A DNA stretch of 64,000 nt from Thalassobium sp. R2A62 (GTDB taxonomy: Bacteria; Pseudomonadota; Alphaproteobacteria; Rhodobacterales; Rhodobacteraceae). Numbering within the stretch: the stretch's first letter is position 1; every line of letters begins with the position of its first letter. The notes under the pieces are model-generated. The model saw only the letters and a program-made list of their open reading frames with translations. It was not told the origin of the DNA and did not search any database. This document shows, piece by piece, positions 52,306 to 62,034 of the stretch. The stretch covers positions 124,001-188,000 of the forward strand of contig NZ_GG697169.2 in the NCBI RefSeq assembly GCF_000161835.1. Reading direction: 5' to 3'. The position numbers and the translations under genes are program-made.

Positions 52306-53123
52306 GGTCTTGTCAGAAGGATTTGAGTTGAGGCGGGCAGGGTGGTTGCGTAGCCTGTCCACATGATTAAAACAGACCCATTCAAGGGCTTTCATAGCAG
52401 CCCTGAGATTATCCGCCTCGCCGTCATGTTGTATGTTCGTTTTCCTTTGTCGCTGAGAAACGTCAAAGATCTTTTGCACGAGCGCGGCGTCGACATCAGC
52501 CACGAAACCGTTCGATATTGGTGGAATAGATTTGGCCCAATGTTCGCCGCTGAAATCCGCCGCAAGCGAGTTCAGCAGATGCGCGCATACTCGAACTGGC
52601 AGTGGCATTTGGATGAGGTATTTGTGAAGACTAATGGCGAGACGCATTATCTTTGGCGTGCCGTGGATCAAGAGGGCGAGGTGCTGGAAAGCTATGTCAC
52701 AAAGCGCCGGAATCGCAAAGTAGCGTTGAAATTCCTCAGGAAAACTATGAAGCGTCACGGTCACCCTCATATCCTGGTGACCGACAAACTCCGGTCTTAC
52801 GGTGCTGCAATGAAGGAAATCGGCAACGAGCAGAGGCAGGAAACCGGTCGCTGGCTCAACAATCGCGCGGAGAATTCACACCTTCCGTTTCGACGACGAG
52901 AACGGGCCATGCAACGTTTCCGCAGCATGCGAAGTTTACAGAAATTCGCCTCCGTTCATGCCTCTGTCTGCAACCATTTCAATAAGGAACGCGCCCTGTA
53001 CAGCAGAGACAATTTCAAGCTCAACCGCGCCGCCGCTCTTGCCGAGTGGCGCGATCTCGGTGCGGCATAAGGGACAGCCTCACTGTCCTTGCAGAGACGA
53101 GTTCGAATTGGTCTGACACCACC
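52306..53123 (+). mobile_element. IS6-family insertion sequence, copy A (818 bp)
   Basis: Left end GGTCTTGTCAGA and right end (reverse complement) GGTGGTGTCAGA form an imperfect inverted repeat of about 24 bp. The flanking octamers (GCCAATCT and CGTCTATG) differ, so no target duplication remains. Same length as copies B and D and nearly identical in sequence to copy C. Confidence 0.9.
52363..53070 (+). CDS. IS6-family transposase (copy A)
   Basis: A 235-residue DDE transposase. An N-terminal helix-turn-helix (LRNVKDLLHERGVDISHETVR) is followed by the catalytic Asp of WHLDEVFVK, the Asp of LVTDKLRSYG and the Glu of NNRAENSHLP. RRRERAMQRFRS is the family's basic C-terminal segment. It appears intact and differs from copy C by single residues (K for E at about 36, V for A, F for S) and two extra codons. 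Confidence 0.95.
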   Translation: MIKTDPFKGFHSSPEIIRLAVMLYVRFPLSLRNVKDLLHERGVDISHETVRYWWNRFGPMFAAEIRRKRVQQMRAYSNWQWHLDEVFVKTNGETHYLWRAVDQEGEVLESYVTKRRNRKVALKFLRKTMKRHGHPHILVTDKLRSYGAAMKEIGNEQRQETGRWLNNRAENSHLPFRRRERAMQRFRSMRSLQKFASVHASVCNHFNKERALYSRDNFKLNRAAALAEWRDLGAA

Positions 53124-55171: not shown

Positions 55172-55989
55172 GGTCTTGTCAGAAGGATTTGAGTTGAGGC
55201 GGGCAGGGCGGTGACCTAGCCTTGTAGGATGACAAAACGCTCCCCATTTCGCTATTTTAAAACCAACCCAGAGGTCATTCGCCTGGCGGTGATGCTCTAT
55301 GTTCGGTTTCCGCTTTCGCTGAGGAACGTGGAAGATCTTCTGCATGAGCGTGGGATTGAGATCAGCCATGAAACCGTCCGGTTCTGGTGGAACAGATTTG
55401 GTCCGATGTTCGCAGCCGAGATCCGCAGAAAGCGGGCAAGCCGGATGCGCGCCTATTCAAACTGGCAGTGGCACCTGGACGAGGTTTTCGTGAAGATCAA
55501 TGGTGAGACGCATTACCTGTGGCGGGCCTTGGATCACGAGGGCGAAGTGCTTGAATCCTTCGTCACAAAGCGACGGGATCGCAAAGCAGCATTGAAATTC
55601 ATAAAAAAATCAATGAAGCGGTGTGGTCGACCGCAGATTATTGTGACCGACAGACTGAGATCATACGGTGCTGCTATGAAGGTCATCGGCAATGCGCCGA
55701 AACAGGAAACAGGCCGTTGGCTAAACAATCGCGCTGAGAATTCACACCTGCCATTTCGACGACGAGAGCGGGCCATGCTTCGGTTCAGGCGCATGCGAAG
55801 TTTACAGAAATTCGCCACCGTCCATTCTTCAGTTCACAACCATTTCAATCAGGAACGCCACCTCTACTCACGCACCAATTTCAAGCTCAACCGCACCGCC
55901 GCTCTTGCCGAGTGGCGTCAACTCGGCGCGGCATAAGGATCAGCCTCACTGGCCTAGTAGAGACTGGTTCGCATTCGTCTGACAGCACC
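55172..55989 (+). mobile_element. IS6-family insertion sequence, copy B (818 bp)
   Basis: Left end GGTCTTGTCAGA; right end (reverse complement) GGTGCTGTCAGA. Flanking octamers CAAGGGGG and GTTCCGGC differ, so there is no target duplication. Same orientation and length as copy A, but clearly diverged in sequence; it lies directly upstream of the hemP group promoter. Confidence 0.9.
55229..55936 (+). CDS. IS6-family transposase (copy B)
   Basis: A 235-residue transposase with all three catalytic residues (WHLDEVFVK, IVTDRLRSYG, NNRAENSHLP). It starts MTKRSPFRYFKTNPEV, like copy D and unlike A and C, so the window holds two subfamilies. No frameshift or early stop is visible. Confidence 0.94.
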   Translation: MTKRSPFRYFKTNPEVIRLAVMLYVRFPLSLRNVEDLLHERGIEISHETVRFWWNRFGPMFAAEIRRKRASRMRAYSNWQWHLDEVFVKINGETHYLWRALDHEGEVLESFVTKRRDRKAALKFIKKSMKRCGRPQIIVTDRLRSYGAAMKVIGNAPKQETGRWLNNRAENSHLPFRRRERAMLRFRRMRSLQKFATVHSSVHNHFNQERHLYSRTNFKLNRTAALAEWRQLGAA

Positions 55990-56185: not shown

Positions 56186-57178
56186 ATGACCTATCTCCTG
56201 CGAGTGATTTTGGCTGCTATTGCACTTGGGGTCGCGGGTTTCCCAACCTTGGCGCAATATGCACCCAATGGGATCCAACGCACACCCGACGACGTGGGTC
56301 CCCGGGAAGACGGCAGTGGTGCATTCCGCACCCATTGCGTTGAGTCTCACGACAGCCATAATGACCCGTTGGTCTGGCCCGGACGGCCCGGGGCCACGCA
56401 TCGCCATGTCTTTTTTGGAAATCCAAACGTAGATCATGAGACCACAATCGAGACACTAGTAAGGGCCACCACCACCACATGCGATGGCGGTAGACTGAAC
56501 CGATCTGCCTATTGGGTGCCTGCGCTGTATGACCAACAGGGTGAACGGATAAGGTATATTGATCCGCTGTTTTATTATAAAACGGGGTACCATGTGCTGG
56601 CCGCGTCCATCCGCCCGCCTCCCCAAGGGTTGCGAATGATTGCGGGAAACGCTCATGCCACACGCCCCCAAGGCGTACATGTCGCTAAATTTCGCTGTTC
56701 AGGGTGGCGTTCCAATCAGGTTTGGTTTGATCAAACCGACCCGTTAGATCATGTGAATTACCTGCCCGACTGTGACGTAGGCGATCAGTTGGAAATCCGG
56801 ATCGTGTTTCCCCAATGTTGGGATGGCATACACTTGTCAGCACCTGACAATCAAAGCCATATGGCGTACCCTCGCCCCGCCACTCCGCCGCATGTAGGCA
56901 CAGGAGCATGCCCGCGATCACACCCCATCGCCATCCCCGAGATTTCATATAACTTTTCGATATATGTCAGCGAACACCTAGGGGCTTCTAGCGCGTGGCG
57001 GTTTTCATCAGATATGGGGGAAGCAATCCCCGGCTCAAGCATCCACGCCGATTGGATGAATGGCTGGGACCCTGACATCATGGAAAAAGTGGTTCTAAAC
57101 TGCCTCAATACAGGTTTTGACTGCGTGGTGGGCCTGCTGGGCGATGGTACTCGCTTAAGGCCAGTGGAGTTGGATTGA
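56186..57178 (+). CDS. secreted DUF1996 protein
   Basis: A 330-residue exported protein. The signal peptide MTYLLRVILAAIALGVAGFP ends near TLAQ. The DUF1996 domain follows: FRTHCVESHDSHNDPLVWPG, PGATHRHVFFGN (about 45-78), NRSAYWVPALYD, FRCSGW and FPQCWDGIHL. Conserved His and Cys residues suggest a metal or disulfide-rich active fold; the function of this family is unknown to me. It lies alone between IS copies B and C. The start is supported by TTGGGAAG 9 bases upstream. Confidence 0.82.
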   Translation: MTYLLRVILAAIALGVAGFPTLAQYAPNGIQRTPDDVGPREDGSGAFRTHCVESHDSHNDPLVWPGRPGATHRHVFFGNPNVDHETTIETLVRATTTTCDGGRLNRSAYWVPALYDQQGERIRYIDPLFYYKTGYHVLAASIRPPPQGLRMIAGNAHATRPQGVHVAKFRCSGWRSNQVWFDQTDPLDHVNYLPDCDVGDQLEIRIVFPQCWDGIHLSAPDNQSHMAYPRPATPPHVGTGACPRSHPIAIPEISYNFSIYVSEHLGASSAWRFSSDMGEAIPGSSIHADWMNGWDPDIMEKVVLNCLNTGFDCVVGLLGDGTRLRPVELD

Positions 57179-57259: not shown

Positions 57260-58071
57260 GGTCTTGTCAGAAGGATTTGAGTTGAGGCGGGCAGGGTGGT
57301 TGCGTAGCCTGTCCACATGATTAAAACAGACCCATTCAAGGGCTTTCATAGCAGCCCTGAGATTATCCGCCTCGCCGTCATGTTGTATGTTCGTTTTCCT
57401 TTGTCGCTGAGAAACGTCGAAGATCTTTTGCACGAGCGCGGCGTCGACATCAGCCACGAAACCGTTCGATATTGGTGGAATAGATTTGGCCCAATGTTCG
57501 CCGCTGAAATCCGCCGCAAGCGAGTTCAGCAGATGCGCGCATACTCGAACTGGCAGTGGCATTTGGATGAGGTATTTGTGAAGACTAATGGCGAGACGCA
57601 TTATCTTTGGCGTGCCGTGGATCAAGAGGGCGAGGTGCTGGAAAGCTATGTCACAAAGCGCCGGAATCGCAAAGCAGCGTTGAAATTCCTCAGGAAAACT
57701 ATGAAGCGTCACCCTCATATCCTGGTGACCGACAAACTCCGGTCTTACGGTGCTGCAATGAAGGAAATCGGCAACGAGCAGAGGCAGGAAACCGGTCGCT
57801 GGCTCAACAATCGCGCGGAGAATTCACACCTTCCGTCTCGACGACGAGAACGGGCCATGCAACGTTTCCGCAGCATGCGAAGTTTACAGAAATTCGCCTC
57901 CGTTCATGCCTCTGTCTGCAACCATTTCAATAAGGAACGCGCCCTGTACAGCAGAGACAATTTCAAGCTCAACCGCGCCGCCGCTCTTGCCGAGTGGCGC
58001 GATCTCGGTGCGGCATAAGGGACAGCCTCACTGTCCTTGCAGAGACGAGTTCGAATTGGTCTGACACCACC
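57260..58071 (+). mobile_element. IS6-family insertion sequence, copy C (812 bp)
   Basis: Ends as in copy A and nearly identical throughout, with only a few base changes and a 6-bp deletion in the transposase gene. Flanks CTGACATT and GTCCAACT differ, so no target duplication. A recent duplicate of copy A, separated from it by about 4.1 kb. Confidence 0.9.
57317..58018 (+). CDS. IS6-family transposase (copy C)
   Basis: A 233-residue transposase, identical to copy A except for a loss of two codons (KRHPH instead of KRHGHPH) just before the second catalytic Asp strand and three residue changes (E, A and S where copy A has K, V and F). Catalytic DDE residues remain; activity after the deletion is uncertain. 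Confidence 0.94.
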   Translation: MIKTDPFKGFHSSPEIIRLAVMLYVRFPLSLRNVEDLLHERGVDISHETVRYWWNRFGPMFAAEIRRKRVQQMRAYSNWQWHLDEVFVKTNGETHYLWRAVDQEGEVLESYVTKRRNRKAALKFLRKTMKRHPHILVTDKLRSYGAAMKEIGNEQRQETGRWLNNRAENSHLPSRRRERAMQRFRSMRSLQKFASVHASVCNHFNKERALYSRDNFKLNRAAALAEWRDLGAA

Positions 58072-58111
58072 GTCCAACTTTATATGACGACGGACAATCT
58101 TGGGAGTAGTC

Positions 58112-61100
58112 ATGCAAAAGTTTGTCATTTTTTCTGCAATAGCACTGACCGCGGCATCGCAAGCACTCGATGCGCAGCAAGTAGAGACTAAAGGTTTCGA
58201 ACAGCATCCAATTTTCACAGCTCAGTTCGTATTGAACCAGCTTGGATATGACGCTGGTCGTGTTGATGGCGACTATGGCCCTAGAACAGCTGCCGCAATT
58301 TCTGAATTTTATCAGGAAACAAATCTCGATGATGACGACCCCACTGTAGTCGATACCTCAGACCTGCTTTCTCTCATCAATGTTGCGGAAGAAGCAGGGC
58401 TAAGAACCGTCCCTTTCTCTGGCTTTGAACACGAGAATTCTATTTCTGAATTTCTCTATCCACCTATCAGTCCGGCGATCACTAGAGAGCGATATTGGTT
58501 CGGGCATTTTTGGTCGAACTACGACTTCAACAACGATGGGCTTCTCGATTTCATCTACACGGGAACCATGAACCCAGAAAACGTTGAGGTGACGGGCGAA
58601 GATACTGCGGGACTGTGCGGCGGCCGTGATTGCGAGGGCGACATGCCCGGGCCAACGCTGTTCTTGCAGGATCAAAATAGAGCTTTCATCGACCGAAGTG
58701 ACCTCTTTGTAGATTTGCGCAGTGTTCCTGGCCAGTCTTTAGCAAGACAAAACTTGGTCGCTGACTTTAACGGTGACGATATTCCAGACCTTTTCATTGC
58801 TGATCATGCAATCGGTCATCATGAAGGTATTCGGGACAGTTATTTTCTGAGCCAACCCGATGGGACATGGTTTGAAAGCTCAAACACGCATCTGAGCGAT
58901 CCAAGCTACCAAATTTTCGATCATGGTGGTGCTGTCGGAGACATAGATGCAGATGGAGATGTAGACATTGTCCTTACCGAACTTGCAAACAAGCTGACTT
59001 GTTGGATCAATGATGGCTCTGGATCCATGTCTAGGCGGACATGTGGCGATGTTAATGCGTTCGCTATTGAGCTAGGCGATATGGATGGAGATGGTGACCT
59101 GGATTTGGTTCATTCTGGTCATGAATATGGAGGCTCATCGCCAACAGGTATCGCTTTAAATGATGGCCGAGGCAATTTTATTCGCTCTGTGCGGCTGCCT
59201 GTTGTTGAAGATTGGGGAACAGTTCCCGAACTGAGCCTATGGGACCTAGATACAGATGGTGATCTCGACATCGTCTTATCACGTGCGGGTATCCTATACG
59301 TTGGCACCGGTGTGCAAGTTATCGAGAACCTCGGCGATGGTTCCTACGATTCCTCATTCTATCCAATCGTTACTGCGCCAGCTGGATATGTTGCAGAACA
59401 TGAAGGCAATGAGTGGAACAATTTCATTGAGAACTTCCGGTTTCATGATGTTGATTTGGATGGCCTTGTGGACGTGGCATTTATTGGCGGAGGAGGAGAC
59501 GATCAACAAAACGCTCCCATGGTCAGAGGCTCGTATCTCAAAAATCTTGGTGGGTTGGCTTTTTCACACATTCCGGCGAATGACCCACAAAACCATGTGC
59601 TTCGCGTTCCTGAGAGCCTGTTCGGCGGGTCGGGTGCCCAGGGCAGAATTCTGCGAAATTCAGATATTCCCTCTGGTAATATTTATGCTGCAGCATTTGA
59701 TGACTTCGTGAGTGGCTACTCCAGCCGGCCATTTTCTCTTGATGATTTCTCCATTTTGGATGCACCAATCGAGTTACCAACCTCTGGCGCTATCATCACA
59801 GCAATGGGCAATTTAGAGATCCATGATCGTGTTCTGGCTGGCAAATACGATGTGATCATTGAGTGGGCCGGACGAGAGTTTGTCGCTACGTTGTGCCAAG
59901 AATATTACCCTCAGTATGACTTTCTTGCGAACCGACTGGTTTTAGGCGCGGATCAGGGTTTCGGTGGTTTTGATCAATTGGCGCAATTCGCAACAAACTC
60001 TTGCGCATTCTATCAAGGTCGTGTCGCTGTCGGCGCTTGGGAAGCTGACCCTGACATTTCAGCAACCGGCTTAGACGCAGTTTTAAGCGACCTGAATAGT
60101 AAGGAAATTGGGCTAGAGTTGATCGTAAAAATGCCAATGCTCACCAACGAGCAACGGAGTGAAATCCTTACTGCAGTTGGTGGTCAATTGATAGACATGC
60201 TTGTCAACGAACAAACCATTGAGGTGGCGGAAGTCAACGGTCAGCCCAGTTCAGAGGAAACATCAAGCTCGGTTCTCTATACCAGCTCTTCAGATGCAGT
60301 TTGTAGTAATGGCGAACCGGCAGCATTTCATGTTTATCGCACTGGCTCTGATCAATGGTTCGTATACCTGCAGGGTGGCGGCCTAGCTTCAAACTCTGAA
60401 GAGTATTTGTCTCGTATTCCGACCTGGACAACACCCCGCACTCAACCCGGTTATCTTCAGGATATGCCCGCCGTCGAAGATTTTCTTAACAAAGGCTACA
60501 ATGTGGCAGTAATCCCCTATTGCTCGAATGACCTATACCAAGGTTTTCACACGCACACTATCCGGGGTGAAACGGTGTATTTCCGAGGACGAGCAATTGT
60601 AGAAAATGTCATCGAACAATTGGCTCCTGATTTATCAACTGCATCTCGTTTAGTATTTGGTGGCTCAAGTGCTGGAGCAATTGGATTGGGTTACAATGCT
60701 GACTTGATTGCTCAATTTGAAAACCCATACCTGCTAGTAGACAGTTTTTGGCTCGATACTGAATCCAGAGCTGTCCGAGATAGCTGGAGCGGGCCCAATT
60801 GGGATGCAATCGAGCAGTTTGTATACGCCAACATGCCTGAACAATGTGCGTCACAGTGGGCTAGTTGTTTTCCACAAAGAACACATTTTGACCGATATGG
60901 ATTTGAGAACGTGTTCTTCATTTGGAACATGGGCGATCCTTACATGCGAGGCGACACCAACGCCAATCGAGCGAGCATTGAAAGTGATTTAGCCTATTAC
61001 GGGCAAGGCCTATCCATCCAGAACGGCGAAGCGATACACCCTAACTATGGCGACTGGGTTCATGGAATGCTTTTCAATGATTTTTATGATTTCCCGTTGG

Positions 61101-61144
61101 AGGGTGGCTCTCTGCAAGAGCGTATCTGGGCGTGGTTAAATTGA
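58112..61144 (+). CDS. secreted multidomain pectinacetylesterase/Notum-like protein
   Basis: A 1,010-residue exported protein. Order: signal peptide (1-22), a peptidoglycan-binding-like domain (about 35-75, FVLNQLGYDAGRVDGDYGPR), a VCBS/FG-GAP beta-propeller-like region with calcium loops (DFNNDGLLD 138, DFNGDDIPD 218, DIDADGDVD 277, DMDGDGDLD 323, DLDTDGDLD 378, DVDLDGLVD 446), a linker, and a C-terminal alpha/beta-hydrolase domain (about 715-1010). The hydrolase has the oxyanion segment YLQGGG, PYCSNDLYQG, nucleophile Ser853 in GGSSAG, and likely Asp942 and His984. This matches plant pectinacetylesterase/Notum enzymes. GGGAG precedes the ATG. Codon use is more AT-rich than upstream genes. 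Confidence 0.83.
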   Translation: MQKFVIFSAIALTAASQALDAQQVETKGFEQHPIFTAQFVLNQLGYDAGRVDGDYGPRTAAAISEFYQETNLDDDDPTVVDTSDLLSLINVAEEAGLRTVPFSGFEHENSISEFLYPPISPAITRERYWFGHFWSNYDFNNDGLLDFIYTGTMNPENVEVTGEDTAGLCGGRDCEGDMPGPTLFLQDQNRAFIDRSDLFVDLRSVPGQSLARQNLVADFNGDDIPDLFIADHAIGHHEGIRDSYFLSQPDGTWFESSNTHLSDPSYQIFDHGGAVGDIDADGDVDIVLTELANKLTCWINDGSGSMSRRTCGDVNAFAIELGDMDGDGDLDLVHSGHEYGGSSPTGIALNDGRGNFIRSVRLPVVEDWGTVPELSLWDLDTDGDLDIVLSRAGILYVGTGVQVIENLGDGSYDSSFYPIVTAPAGYVAEHEGNEWNNFIENFRFHDVDLDGLVDVAFIGGGGDDQQNAPMVRGSYLKNLGGLAFSHIPANDPQNHVLRVPESLFGGSGAQGRILRNSDIPSGNIYAAAFDDFVSGYSSRPFSLDDFSILDAPIELPTSGAIITAMGNLEIHDRVLAGKYDVIIEWAGREFVATLCQEYYPQYDFLANRLVLGADQGFGGFDQLAQFATNSCAFYQGRVAVGAWEADPDISATGLDAVLSDLNSKEIGLELIVKMPMLTNEQRSEILTAVGGQLIDMLVNEQTIEVAEVNGQPSSEETSSSVLYTSSSDAVCSNGEPAAFHVYRTGSDQWFVYLQGGGLASNSEEYLSRIPTWTTPRTQPGYLQDMPAVEDFLNKGYNVAVIPYCSNDLYQGFHTHTIRGETVYFRGRAIVENVIEQLAPDLSTASRLVFGGSSAGAIGLGYNADLIAQFENPYLLVDSFWLDTESRAVRDSWSGPNWDAIEQFVYANMPEQCASQWASCFPQRTHFDRYGFENVFFIWNMGDPYMRGDTNANRASIESDLAYYGQGLSIQNGEAIHPNYGDWVHGMLFNDFYDFPLEGGSLQERIWAWLN

Positions 61145-61216
61145 GCGACATCACCCTAGTATGAAGCCGTCCCTTTCTTGGACCAAAATGGGTAGTTTGA
61201 TGGTTACCCTAGCTGA

Positions 61217-62034
61217 GGTCTTGTCAGAAGAAAGCTGCTTGAGACGGGCAGGGTGGTCTCGTAGCGTTTGAGGATGACAAAACGCTCCCCATTTCGCTAC
61301 TTCAAAACCAGTCCTGAGATCATTCGCCTGGCTGTTATGCTCTACGTCCGATTTCCGCTCTCGCTACGAAACGTTGAGGACCTGCTGCACGAACGCGGCA
61401 TCGAGATCAGCCATGAGACGGTCCGGTTCTGGTGGAACAGATTTGGACCGATGTTTGCAGCCGAGATCCGCAGAAAACGGGTTCAGCAGATGCGCGCATA
61501 CTCGAACTGGCAGTGGCATCTGGATGAGGTTTTTGTAAAGATTAACGGCGAGACGCACTACCTTTGGCGAGCCGTGGATCACGAGGGGGAGGTACTTGAA
61601 AGCTCCGTGACCAAGCGCCAGGATCGAAAAGCGGCATTGAAATTTCTCAGGAAAACCATGAAGCGTCACGGTTATCCTAATATCCTGGTGACAGACAAAC
61701 TCCGGTCCTACGGCGCGACAATGAAGGAAATCGGCAACGAGCAGAGGCAGGAAGCGGGCCGCTGGGAAAACAACAGAGCTGAGAATTCTCACCTTCCGTT
61801 TCGACGACGAGAACGGGCGATGCTGCGGTTCCGGCAGATGAACAGTCTACAGAAATTAGTTGCTGTTCGTTCTTCCGTTCACAACCACTTTAATCTGGAA
61901 CGCCACCTCTACTCCCGCGAAAATTTCAAGCTCAACCGTGCCGCCGCTCTCGCTGACTGGGGTCAACTTTGCGCAGCATAAGGGACAGTGTCATTGTCCT
62001 TGTAGAGACTGGTTCGCATTGGTCTGACACCACC
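61217..62034 (+). mobile_element. IS6-family insertion sequence, copy D (818 bp)
   Basis: Left end GGTCTTGTCAGA, right end (reverse complement) GGTGGTGTCAGA. Flanks CTAGCTGA and CGAGTAGG differ. Subfamily related to copy B; the fourth copy in the same orientation within 9.8 kb. Confidence 0.9.
61274..61981 (+). CDS. IS6-family transposase (copy D)
   Basis: A 235-residue transposase from ATG 61274 (MTKRSPFRYFKTSPEI). Catalytic residues are present (WHLDEVFVK, LVTDKLRSYG, NNRAENSHLP). It is a mosaic: the N-terminus resembles copy B and the centre (VQQMRAYSNWQ to EIGNEQRQE) resembles A and C, which may mean recombination between subfamilies. Confidence 0.93.
   Translation: MTKRSPFRYFKTSPEIIRLAVMLYVRFPLSLRNVEDLLHERGIEISHETVRFWWNRFGPMFAAEIRRKRVQQMRAYSNWQWHLDEVFVKINGETHYLWRAVDHEGEVLESSVTKRQDRKAALKFLRKTMKRHGYPNILVTDKLRSYGATMKEIGNEQRQEAGRWENNRAENSHLPFRRRERAMLRFRQMNSLQKLVAVRSSVHNHFNLERHLYSRENFKLNRAAALADWGQLCAA

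Follow-up and report, generated by a model that had tools for sequence, protein, structure and literature searches.

How does a bacterium come to encode a pectinacetylesterase/Notum-like hydrolase behind a wall-binding-like module and a series of calcium-type repeats, and what might such a protein do? The question is raised by one open reading frame in a 64,000-nucleotide stretch of the Thalassobium sp. R2A62 genome, hereafter the window. A sequence-only reading had described this frame as an exported protein of 1,010 residues and of novel architecture that could de-acylate polysaccharides of algae or of a cell wall. Its observation on the frame and the domain order was confirmed, and its interpretation was partly supported. 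The frame runs from the ATG at 58112 to the stop codon at 61144 with no internal stops, and it is the only full-length copy in its own genome. We consider this ATG the better start because the in-frame TTG at 58100 would overlap the possible ribosome-binding site. A gap of 40 bp separates the ATG from the end of insertion sequence IS6 copy C. A scan of positions 57900-61300 for promoters of the consensus type, the only type that it covers, returned none, against a mean of 4.1 in shuffled sequences. Pfam placed PG_binding_1, five FG-GAP_3 stretches and PAE along the protein in that order, all above their cut-offs, which bears out the three domain calls made beforehand (wall-binding-like, VCBS-type repeats and PAE/Notum). 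An NCBIfam scan of the whole protein touched seven families, none at its own cut-off.

Table 1. Features of the fusion gene and its IS6 surroundings, in window positions.
Feature	Position	Strand	Basis or remark
IS6 copy A	52306-53123	+	same direction as C and D
IS6 copy B	55172-55989	+	same direction as C and D
IS6 copy C	57260-58071	+	transposase 57317-58018; inverted ends GGTCTTGTCAGA / GGTGGTGTCAGA
GGGAG, possible ribosome-binding site	58102-58106	+	5 nt upstream of the ATG; suggested by sequence
Fusion gene	58112-61144	+	open frame, 1,010 aa plus stop
Probable signal peptide, about residues 1-22	58112-58177	+	hydrophobicity; cleavage site by eye
PG_binding_1, residues 37-72	58220-58327	+	Pfam, 26.3 bits, cut-off 23
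Predicted β-propeller, residues 133-487	58508-59572	+	five FG-GAP_3 stretches, six loops, model
β-rich segment, residues 546-611	59747-59944	+	five strands, pLDDT about 48-61
Fusion joint/linker, about residues 687-716	60170-60259	+	ends of free scaffold and free esterase
PAE/Notum-type esterase domain, residues 717-1010	60260-61141	+	Pfam PAE, L038 alignment, profile comparison
IS6 copy D	61217-62034	+	transposase 61268-61981; DDE_Tnp_IS240, 135.8 bits

The protein looks like an exported one, judging from an N-terminal signal read by eye and from hydrophobicity, as the most hydrophobic 15-residue stretch starts at residue 5. The PG_binding_1 (PF01471) match that follows is marginal. A full-length AlphaFold model, built with 13 relatives, had a mean pLDDT of 55.1 and gave nothing usable from residue 611 onward. 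In this model the N-terminal module has helices at residues 33-43, 57-69 and 82-94, with pLDDT of about 67-83 up to residue 90. Several relatives of the scaffold, the part of the protein ahead of the esterase domain, carry a lipobox-like or other N-terminus at this place; the lipobox-like form was read by eye in the viral contigs L063-L066 and L068.

Residues 133-487 are predicted to form an FG-GAP/VCBS-type propeller, a call that draws on several repeats over the Pfam cut-off and on a fold match. FG-GAP_3 (PF13517) scored 56.1 bits over five stretches (cut-off 26.9), and 'VCBS repeats' is a fair label since this family was earlier named VCBS. Six loops of the DxDxDGxxD type start at residues 138, 218, 277, 323, 378 and 446, where 2,000 shuffled sequences held 0.03 on average and two at most; they look canonical and are putative calcium sites. 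The pLDDT of the propeller is mostly 70-94, with dips near residues 165 and 235. Foldseek against the PDB gave 30 matches with E at or below 0.001, mainly propellers by their titles, and none at that threshold among viral models. Residues 107-479 superimposed on the propeller chain of LGI1 (9kzc_B) with Z 21.9 and rmsd 2.9 over 277 aligned residues. LGI1, aldos-2-ulose dehydratase, the PLL/PHL lectins and CRTAC1 were among the VIA rows, at Z about 19-22; the rows span residues 107-500 only, so that the fold comparison barely touches the remaining parts. The PLL/PHL lectins, whose structures were solved with sugars, align over about 290 residues at Z about 20 and rmsd 3.1-3.3. A sequence-profile search of the PDB with the scaffold found mainly integrin chains, at best with E 1.9e-6 over 64 profile positions. 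The six loops suggest six blades; several of the fold matches are seven-bladed, and the number may be six or seven. Beyond the propeller, the β-rich segment is common to scaffold relatives and aligned in L003, L004 and G422.

The C-terminal domain can be assigned to the PAE/Notum family (PF03283, CAZy CE13) by a Pfam score above cut-off and by its GxSxG serine. Pfam PAE matched residues 725-915 (71.2 bits, cut-off 26.6), and human Notum matched residues 727-868 in a phmmer search (E about 1e-14). Ser853, proposed earlier as the nucleophile, proved to be the second S of GGSSAG and falls in the shared nucleophile column of the PAE alignments. For the main alignment 17 loci were tried: L057 yielded no frame, L038 was trimmed to the 270 aa that start at its first M, and a single protein stands under both L049 and L132b. 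GxS[A/S]G is present in each of the 18 rows, this duplicate counted twice, as is a C-terminal His whose position agrees to within two columns; in the fusion protein it is His984. This is also the only His after Ser853 that the fusion protein has in common with L038, its closest relative found in this domain. Asp942 lies in a GDPYM motif common to L038 and follows a strand in the low-confidence model; it is outside any shared Asp column in either PAE alignment. The predicted triad would thus have Ser853 as nucleophile, with His984 as the probable base and Asp942 as a tentative acid.

Profile comparison extended this assignment over the length of the domain. A profile of the PAE half of the fusion protein and L038 matched Notum-like bacterial PAEs with a probability of 97.7 and E 1.7e-12 over 283 columns; the Notum-like profile excludes both query proteins, and its five rows are four distinct proteins. 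Against Notum itself the query profile reached an E of 1.2e-14 in a match that covers the domain's first half. An E-value of 2.8e-56 against Notum was not counted, as it is probably owed mostly to Notum-like rows in the alignment, and the comparison of alignments A3 and A1 was ignored as circular, A1 including both A3 sequences. Alignments A5 and A6 contain one protein twice (L056 and L133). NCBIfam found no family in the PAE half. Modelled alone from its single sequence, this half had a pLDDT of 34.8 and the model was left unused; in the full model it stayed under 50. The α/β-hydrolase fold typical of the family is a prediction from sequence profiles here. We consider catalytic activity of the domain likely.

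Both halves of the protein also occur separately. L038 (in G726, another genome of the class) is a free PAE of 320 residues, 42% identical over residues 717-1010, and shares with the fusion protein the GDPYM motif, the GGG ahead of GxSAG and the C-terminal His. Unlike the fusion protein, it has its own signal peptide (by eye), no scaffold and other neighbours, among them GcrA and genes that by eye look like housekeeping ones. This GcrA agrees with a placement in the Alphaproteobacteria, to which the gene content of the window points as well. Scaffolds without the esterase include L004 (624 aa, 52% identity), one in G422 (607 aa, 49% identity), and those of G171 (578 aa) and G164 (447 aa). A metagenome-assembled relative, L003, is 64% identical over residues 29-665, and its contig ends before the esterase point. 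The genome of the fusion gene itself holds a scaffold paralogue without esterase, of 703 aa, about 29 kb downstream (L060 4168-6279; G000:C1:214168-216279), in which the PG_binding_1 match is below cut-off. The free G422 scaffold ends opposite residue 686, its last 20 or so residues aligning weakly, and L038 aligns from residue 717. The joint falls at the end of the free scaffold, where the signal peptide of the free esterase would sit, and we therefore read the architecture as the product of a gene fusion. Considering that G422, with a free scaffold, and G726, with a free esterase, belong to one genus, a donor near this lineage is plausible. Judging from their names, the relatives are probably marine.

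No second fused copy was found in the sampled genomes, in phage and plasmid records or in the viral scans. The genome counts given here (family, class and phylum) are samples of larger groups, and the genus of the window is represented by one genome. At E 0.001 the whole protein matched in 30 of 295 genomes of the family, its own included, and among the matches listed none but its own extended beyond residue 490. Residues 479-1010 matched in one of 394 genomes, again its own. At 1e-20 the scaffold profile matched in seven of the 385 sampled genomes of the class, among them the window's own. When 84,980 species, each represented by a single genome, were scanned by pattern, a method limited to close relatives, two loci came up, L003 and L004. 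Neither of these two genomes yielded a PAE, in a weak search that had no known positive, and a sample of 118 genomes from the phylum to which G1118, the genome of L004, belongs had none. In the class and phylum samples no other PAE frame exceeded 539 aa, against 1,018 for the fusion frame. Annotated phage and plasmid records and a first viral scan held no relatives of the whole protein, and two viral scans confirmed none of the PAE half. The open-licence papers searched gave us nothing that joins pectinacetylesterase with FG-GAP, nor anything that combines VCBS repeat, peptidoglycan binding, marine and phage.

The architecture is a real and apparently rare fusion of two gene families. Profile and genome searches found no second example of the combination; neither half is new, since the two families occur separately. 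PAE/Notum-type proteins, described beforehand as best known in plants and animals, also occur in bacteria: the class sample of 385 genomes and the phylum sample of 398 each had eight that carry the family, the window's own genome being counted in both. Plant and animal members are not known to be joined to PG_binding_1 or FG-GAP.

How the gene reached its present place may be read from its flanks and its composition. It occupies nearly all of the 3,145 bp between IS6 copies C and D (58072-61216), which lie in direct orientation, both on the plus strand. The C transposase scored 192.7 bits with the IS6 model (cut-off 125) and 136.8 bits with DDE_Tnp_IS240. Over the 300-nt stretches compared, copies A and C are 100% identical, and B and D share 75-81% identity with A. 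As proteins A and C are 99% identical, and C is 6 bp shorter. The fusion gene has a GC content of 0.48, compared with 0.557 for positions 1-52000 of the window, and a GC3 of 0.44, compared with 0.56-0.65 in five other window genes. Low GC and the IS6 flanks suggest that it arrived by transfer. The GC of its two halves (0.48 and 0.47) is nearly equal, which would fit halves that were already fused on arrival or that came from a single donor. An IS6 composite transposon made of C and D was not accepted, as the two differ (85% protein identity) and no target duplication was found; the eight flanks of 8 bases around copies A-D include no pair with six bases in common. IS6 pseudo-compound transposons need not retain a target duplication. 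The gene does lie between C and D, as had been pointed out, but the setting is not special: IS6-like sequences match at 40 places in the genome, many of them incomplete or interrupted by stops, and the flanks thus say little about function.

A DUF1996 protein (153.2 bits), its N-terminus hydrophobic by eye, is encoded at 56186-57178 (+) between IS6 copies B and C. The papers on DUF1996 that turned up mostly concern fungi (PMC4738358). A role in anti-phage defence was set aside, as neither the fusion protein nor the DUF1996 protein nor the transposase of copy C had a PADLOC match.

As to function, the reading that we favour, with modest confidence, is an envelope-held serine esterase whose propeller docks a glycan and which removes O-acyl groups from surface or extracellular polysaccharide. 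Fusion of the two families would have produced a single, presumably exported protein, which the N-terminal PG_binding_1 module may tether to the cell envelope. The propeller with its six calcium-type loops could serve as a glycan docking platform. The PAE/Notum domain, with Ser853, His984 and probably Asp942, would then hydrolyse O-acyl, most likely O-acetyl, esters of the polysaccharide predicted as its target. In favour of this reading are the PAE score, a Notum match that spans the nucleophile, a propeller predicted both by sequence and by model, and the sugar-bound lectins among its fold matches. Polysaccharide genes also lie near relatives. In L132 (G1018) Notum-like PAEs have two glycosyltransferases, a sulfotransferase and FG-GAP proteins as neighbours; in L133 (G854) a Notum-like PAE precedes Poly_export and Wzc genes. 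A polysaccharide lyase gene (106.4 bits) directly precedes the scaffold gene in viral contig L072, as does an alginate-lyase match in L004 that is below cut-off (20.1 bits, cut-off 22.2). The context of the relatives leans towards surface or extracellular polysaccharide, over peptidoglycan, as the general setting.

Several observations weigh against the envelope-held esterase. The PAE half is poorly modelled and Asp942 is off the shared Asp column; the PG_binding_1 match is barely above its cut-off; and the propeller match is one of fold, not of glycan binding. The Notum-like PAEs from polysaccharide clusters are just 16-19% identical to the domain, and its closest relative sits beside GcrA. 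The lyase neighbours come to two cases, one of them below cut-off, and no further lyases were noted by eye among the neighbours of L063-L070 and L073-L075. The near neighbours of the fusion gene are the IS6 copies, the DUF1996 protein, a ferritin-like gene and DUF1289, and none in the window is linked to polysaccharide.

Alternatively, the enzyme might be released or surface-exposed and attack acylated polysaccharides of algae or other cells, like a scavenging CAZyme. Members of the PAE family act on pectin in plants (PMC5465549), and the lyase-type genes that adjoin the scaffold in L072 and, below cut-off, in L004 would fit such a role. Degradation genes were not seen among the near neighbours in the window, and the PG_binding_1 module argues for a tether; we regard free scavenging as rather unlikely. 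A PG_binding_1 module above cut-off, with its weak match to an endolysin family in PHROGs (22.9 bits), could instead guide an O-acetyl-peptidoglycan esterase to the wall. This is decidedly unlikely, considering that the free PAE L038 has no wall module, that Notum-like PAEs are located with polysaccharide genes, and that the N-terminus of several scaffold relatives is lipobox-like in place of PG_binding_1. We doubt just as strongly that the hydrolase domain is dead or binding-only and the protein an adhesin or receptor-like scaffold. The insecurely placed triad acid and the lack of Pfam enzyme domains in the scanned scaffold relatives speak for it, whereas the GxSAG, the preceding GGG and the C-terminal His are kept relative to L038 at 42% identity. 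An assembly or sequencing artefact is extremely improbable even though the fused frame was found in one genome only, given a frame of 1,010 codons that runs without a break in a genome assembled as one contig, halves alike in their low GC, and a joint that coincides with the natural ends of both partners. If the favoured reading of an envelope-held esterase is true, the protein would be a bacterial Notum/PAE enzyme held at the envelope by a modular scaffold, and it would give access, through bacteria, to a family whose known members come mostly from plants and animals.

The scaffold family extends into viral contigs. With the scaffold alignment as query, 69 loci were found there, of which 62 had a frame with repeat motifs. 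Four of them (L063, L069, L070 and L072) were scanned with Pfam, which found PG_binding_1 and FG-GAP_3 in the latter three. These three, L003 and the own-genome paralogue L060 resemble the fusion protein in having a wall-binding module followed by a propeller, with the L060 module below cut-off; unlike it, L060, L069, L070 and L072 have no PAE match in Pfam. PHROGs supported the phage nature of some contigs: L063 encodes a PhoH-like protein, L067 a DNA helicase and L072 a clamp loader. One neighbour in L065 matched no family and one in L070 a weak, unnamed family only. We presume the phages that carry the scaffold to be T4-like. Three scaffold queries found no named phage with it.

Viral and bacterial scaffold rows are mixed on the tree, on which well-supported branches force at least four label changes. 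Shuffling the viral/bacterial labels gave an equally low value in 193 of 500 runs, so that they cluster no more than at random. The fusion protein pairs with L003 (92/99, not starred). The places of some rows are unsure because of four long branches (G164, the own-genome paralogue, L072 and G552a) and three rows of odd composition. One could imagine that the scaffold circulates between bacteria and phages as an envelope-display platform which here captured a Notum-like esterase. Phages would alter the surface of infected cells with the bare scaffold, and the bacterium would strip acyl groups from its surface polysaccharide, changing recognition by phages or algae. We judge this scenario unlikely. 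A propeller family common to bacteria and viral contigs, whose gene adjoins a polysaccharide lyase once and a sub-threshold alginate-lyase match once, might represent a surface-modification module in phage-host biology. FG-GAP-repeat proteins of the prasinovirus MntV1 have a proposed role in attachment or entry (PMC11467894). The likeness, drawn by description alone, lies in the repeats in a virus, and MntV1 is a eukaryotic virus.

Across L063-L075, the propeller family occurs in viral contigs and is mixed with bacterial copies on the tree. The bacterial scaffold protein of G552 shares 84% identity with the one encoded in viral contig L074; in G552 the gene lies among others that look like housekeeping genes. 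In two genomes of different families a scaffold gene is placed between genes read by eye as mnmE and rho (L142 7140-8963 in G422 and L145 4687-6123 in G552).
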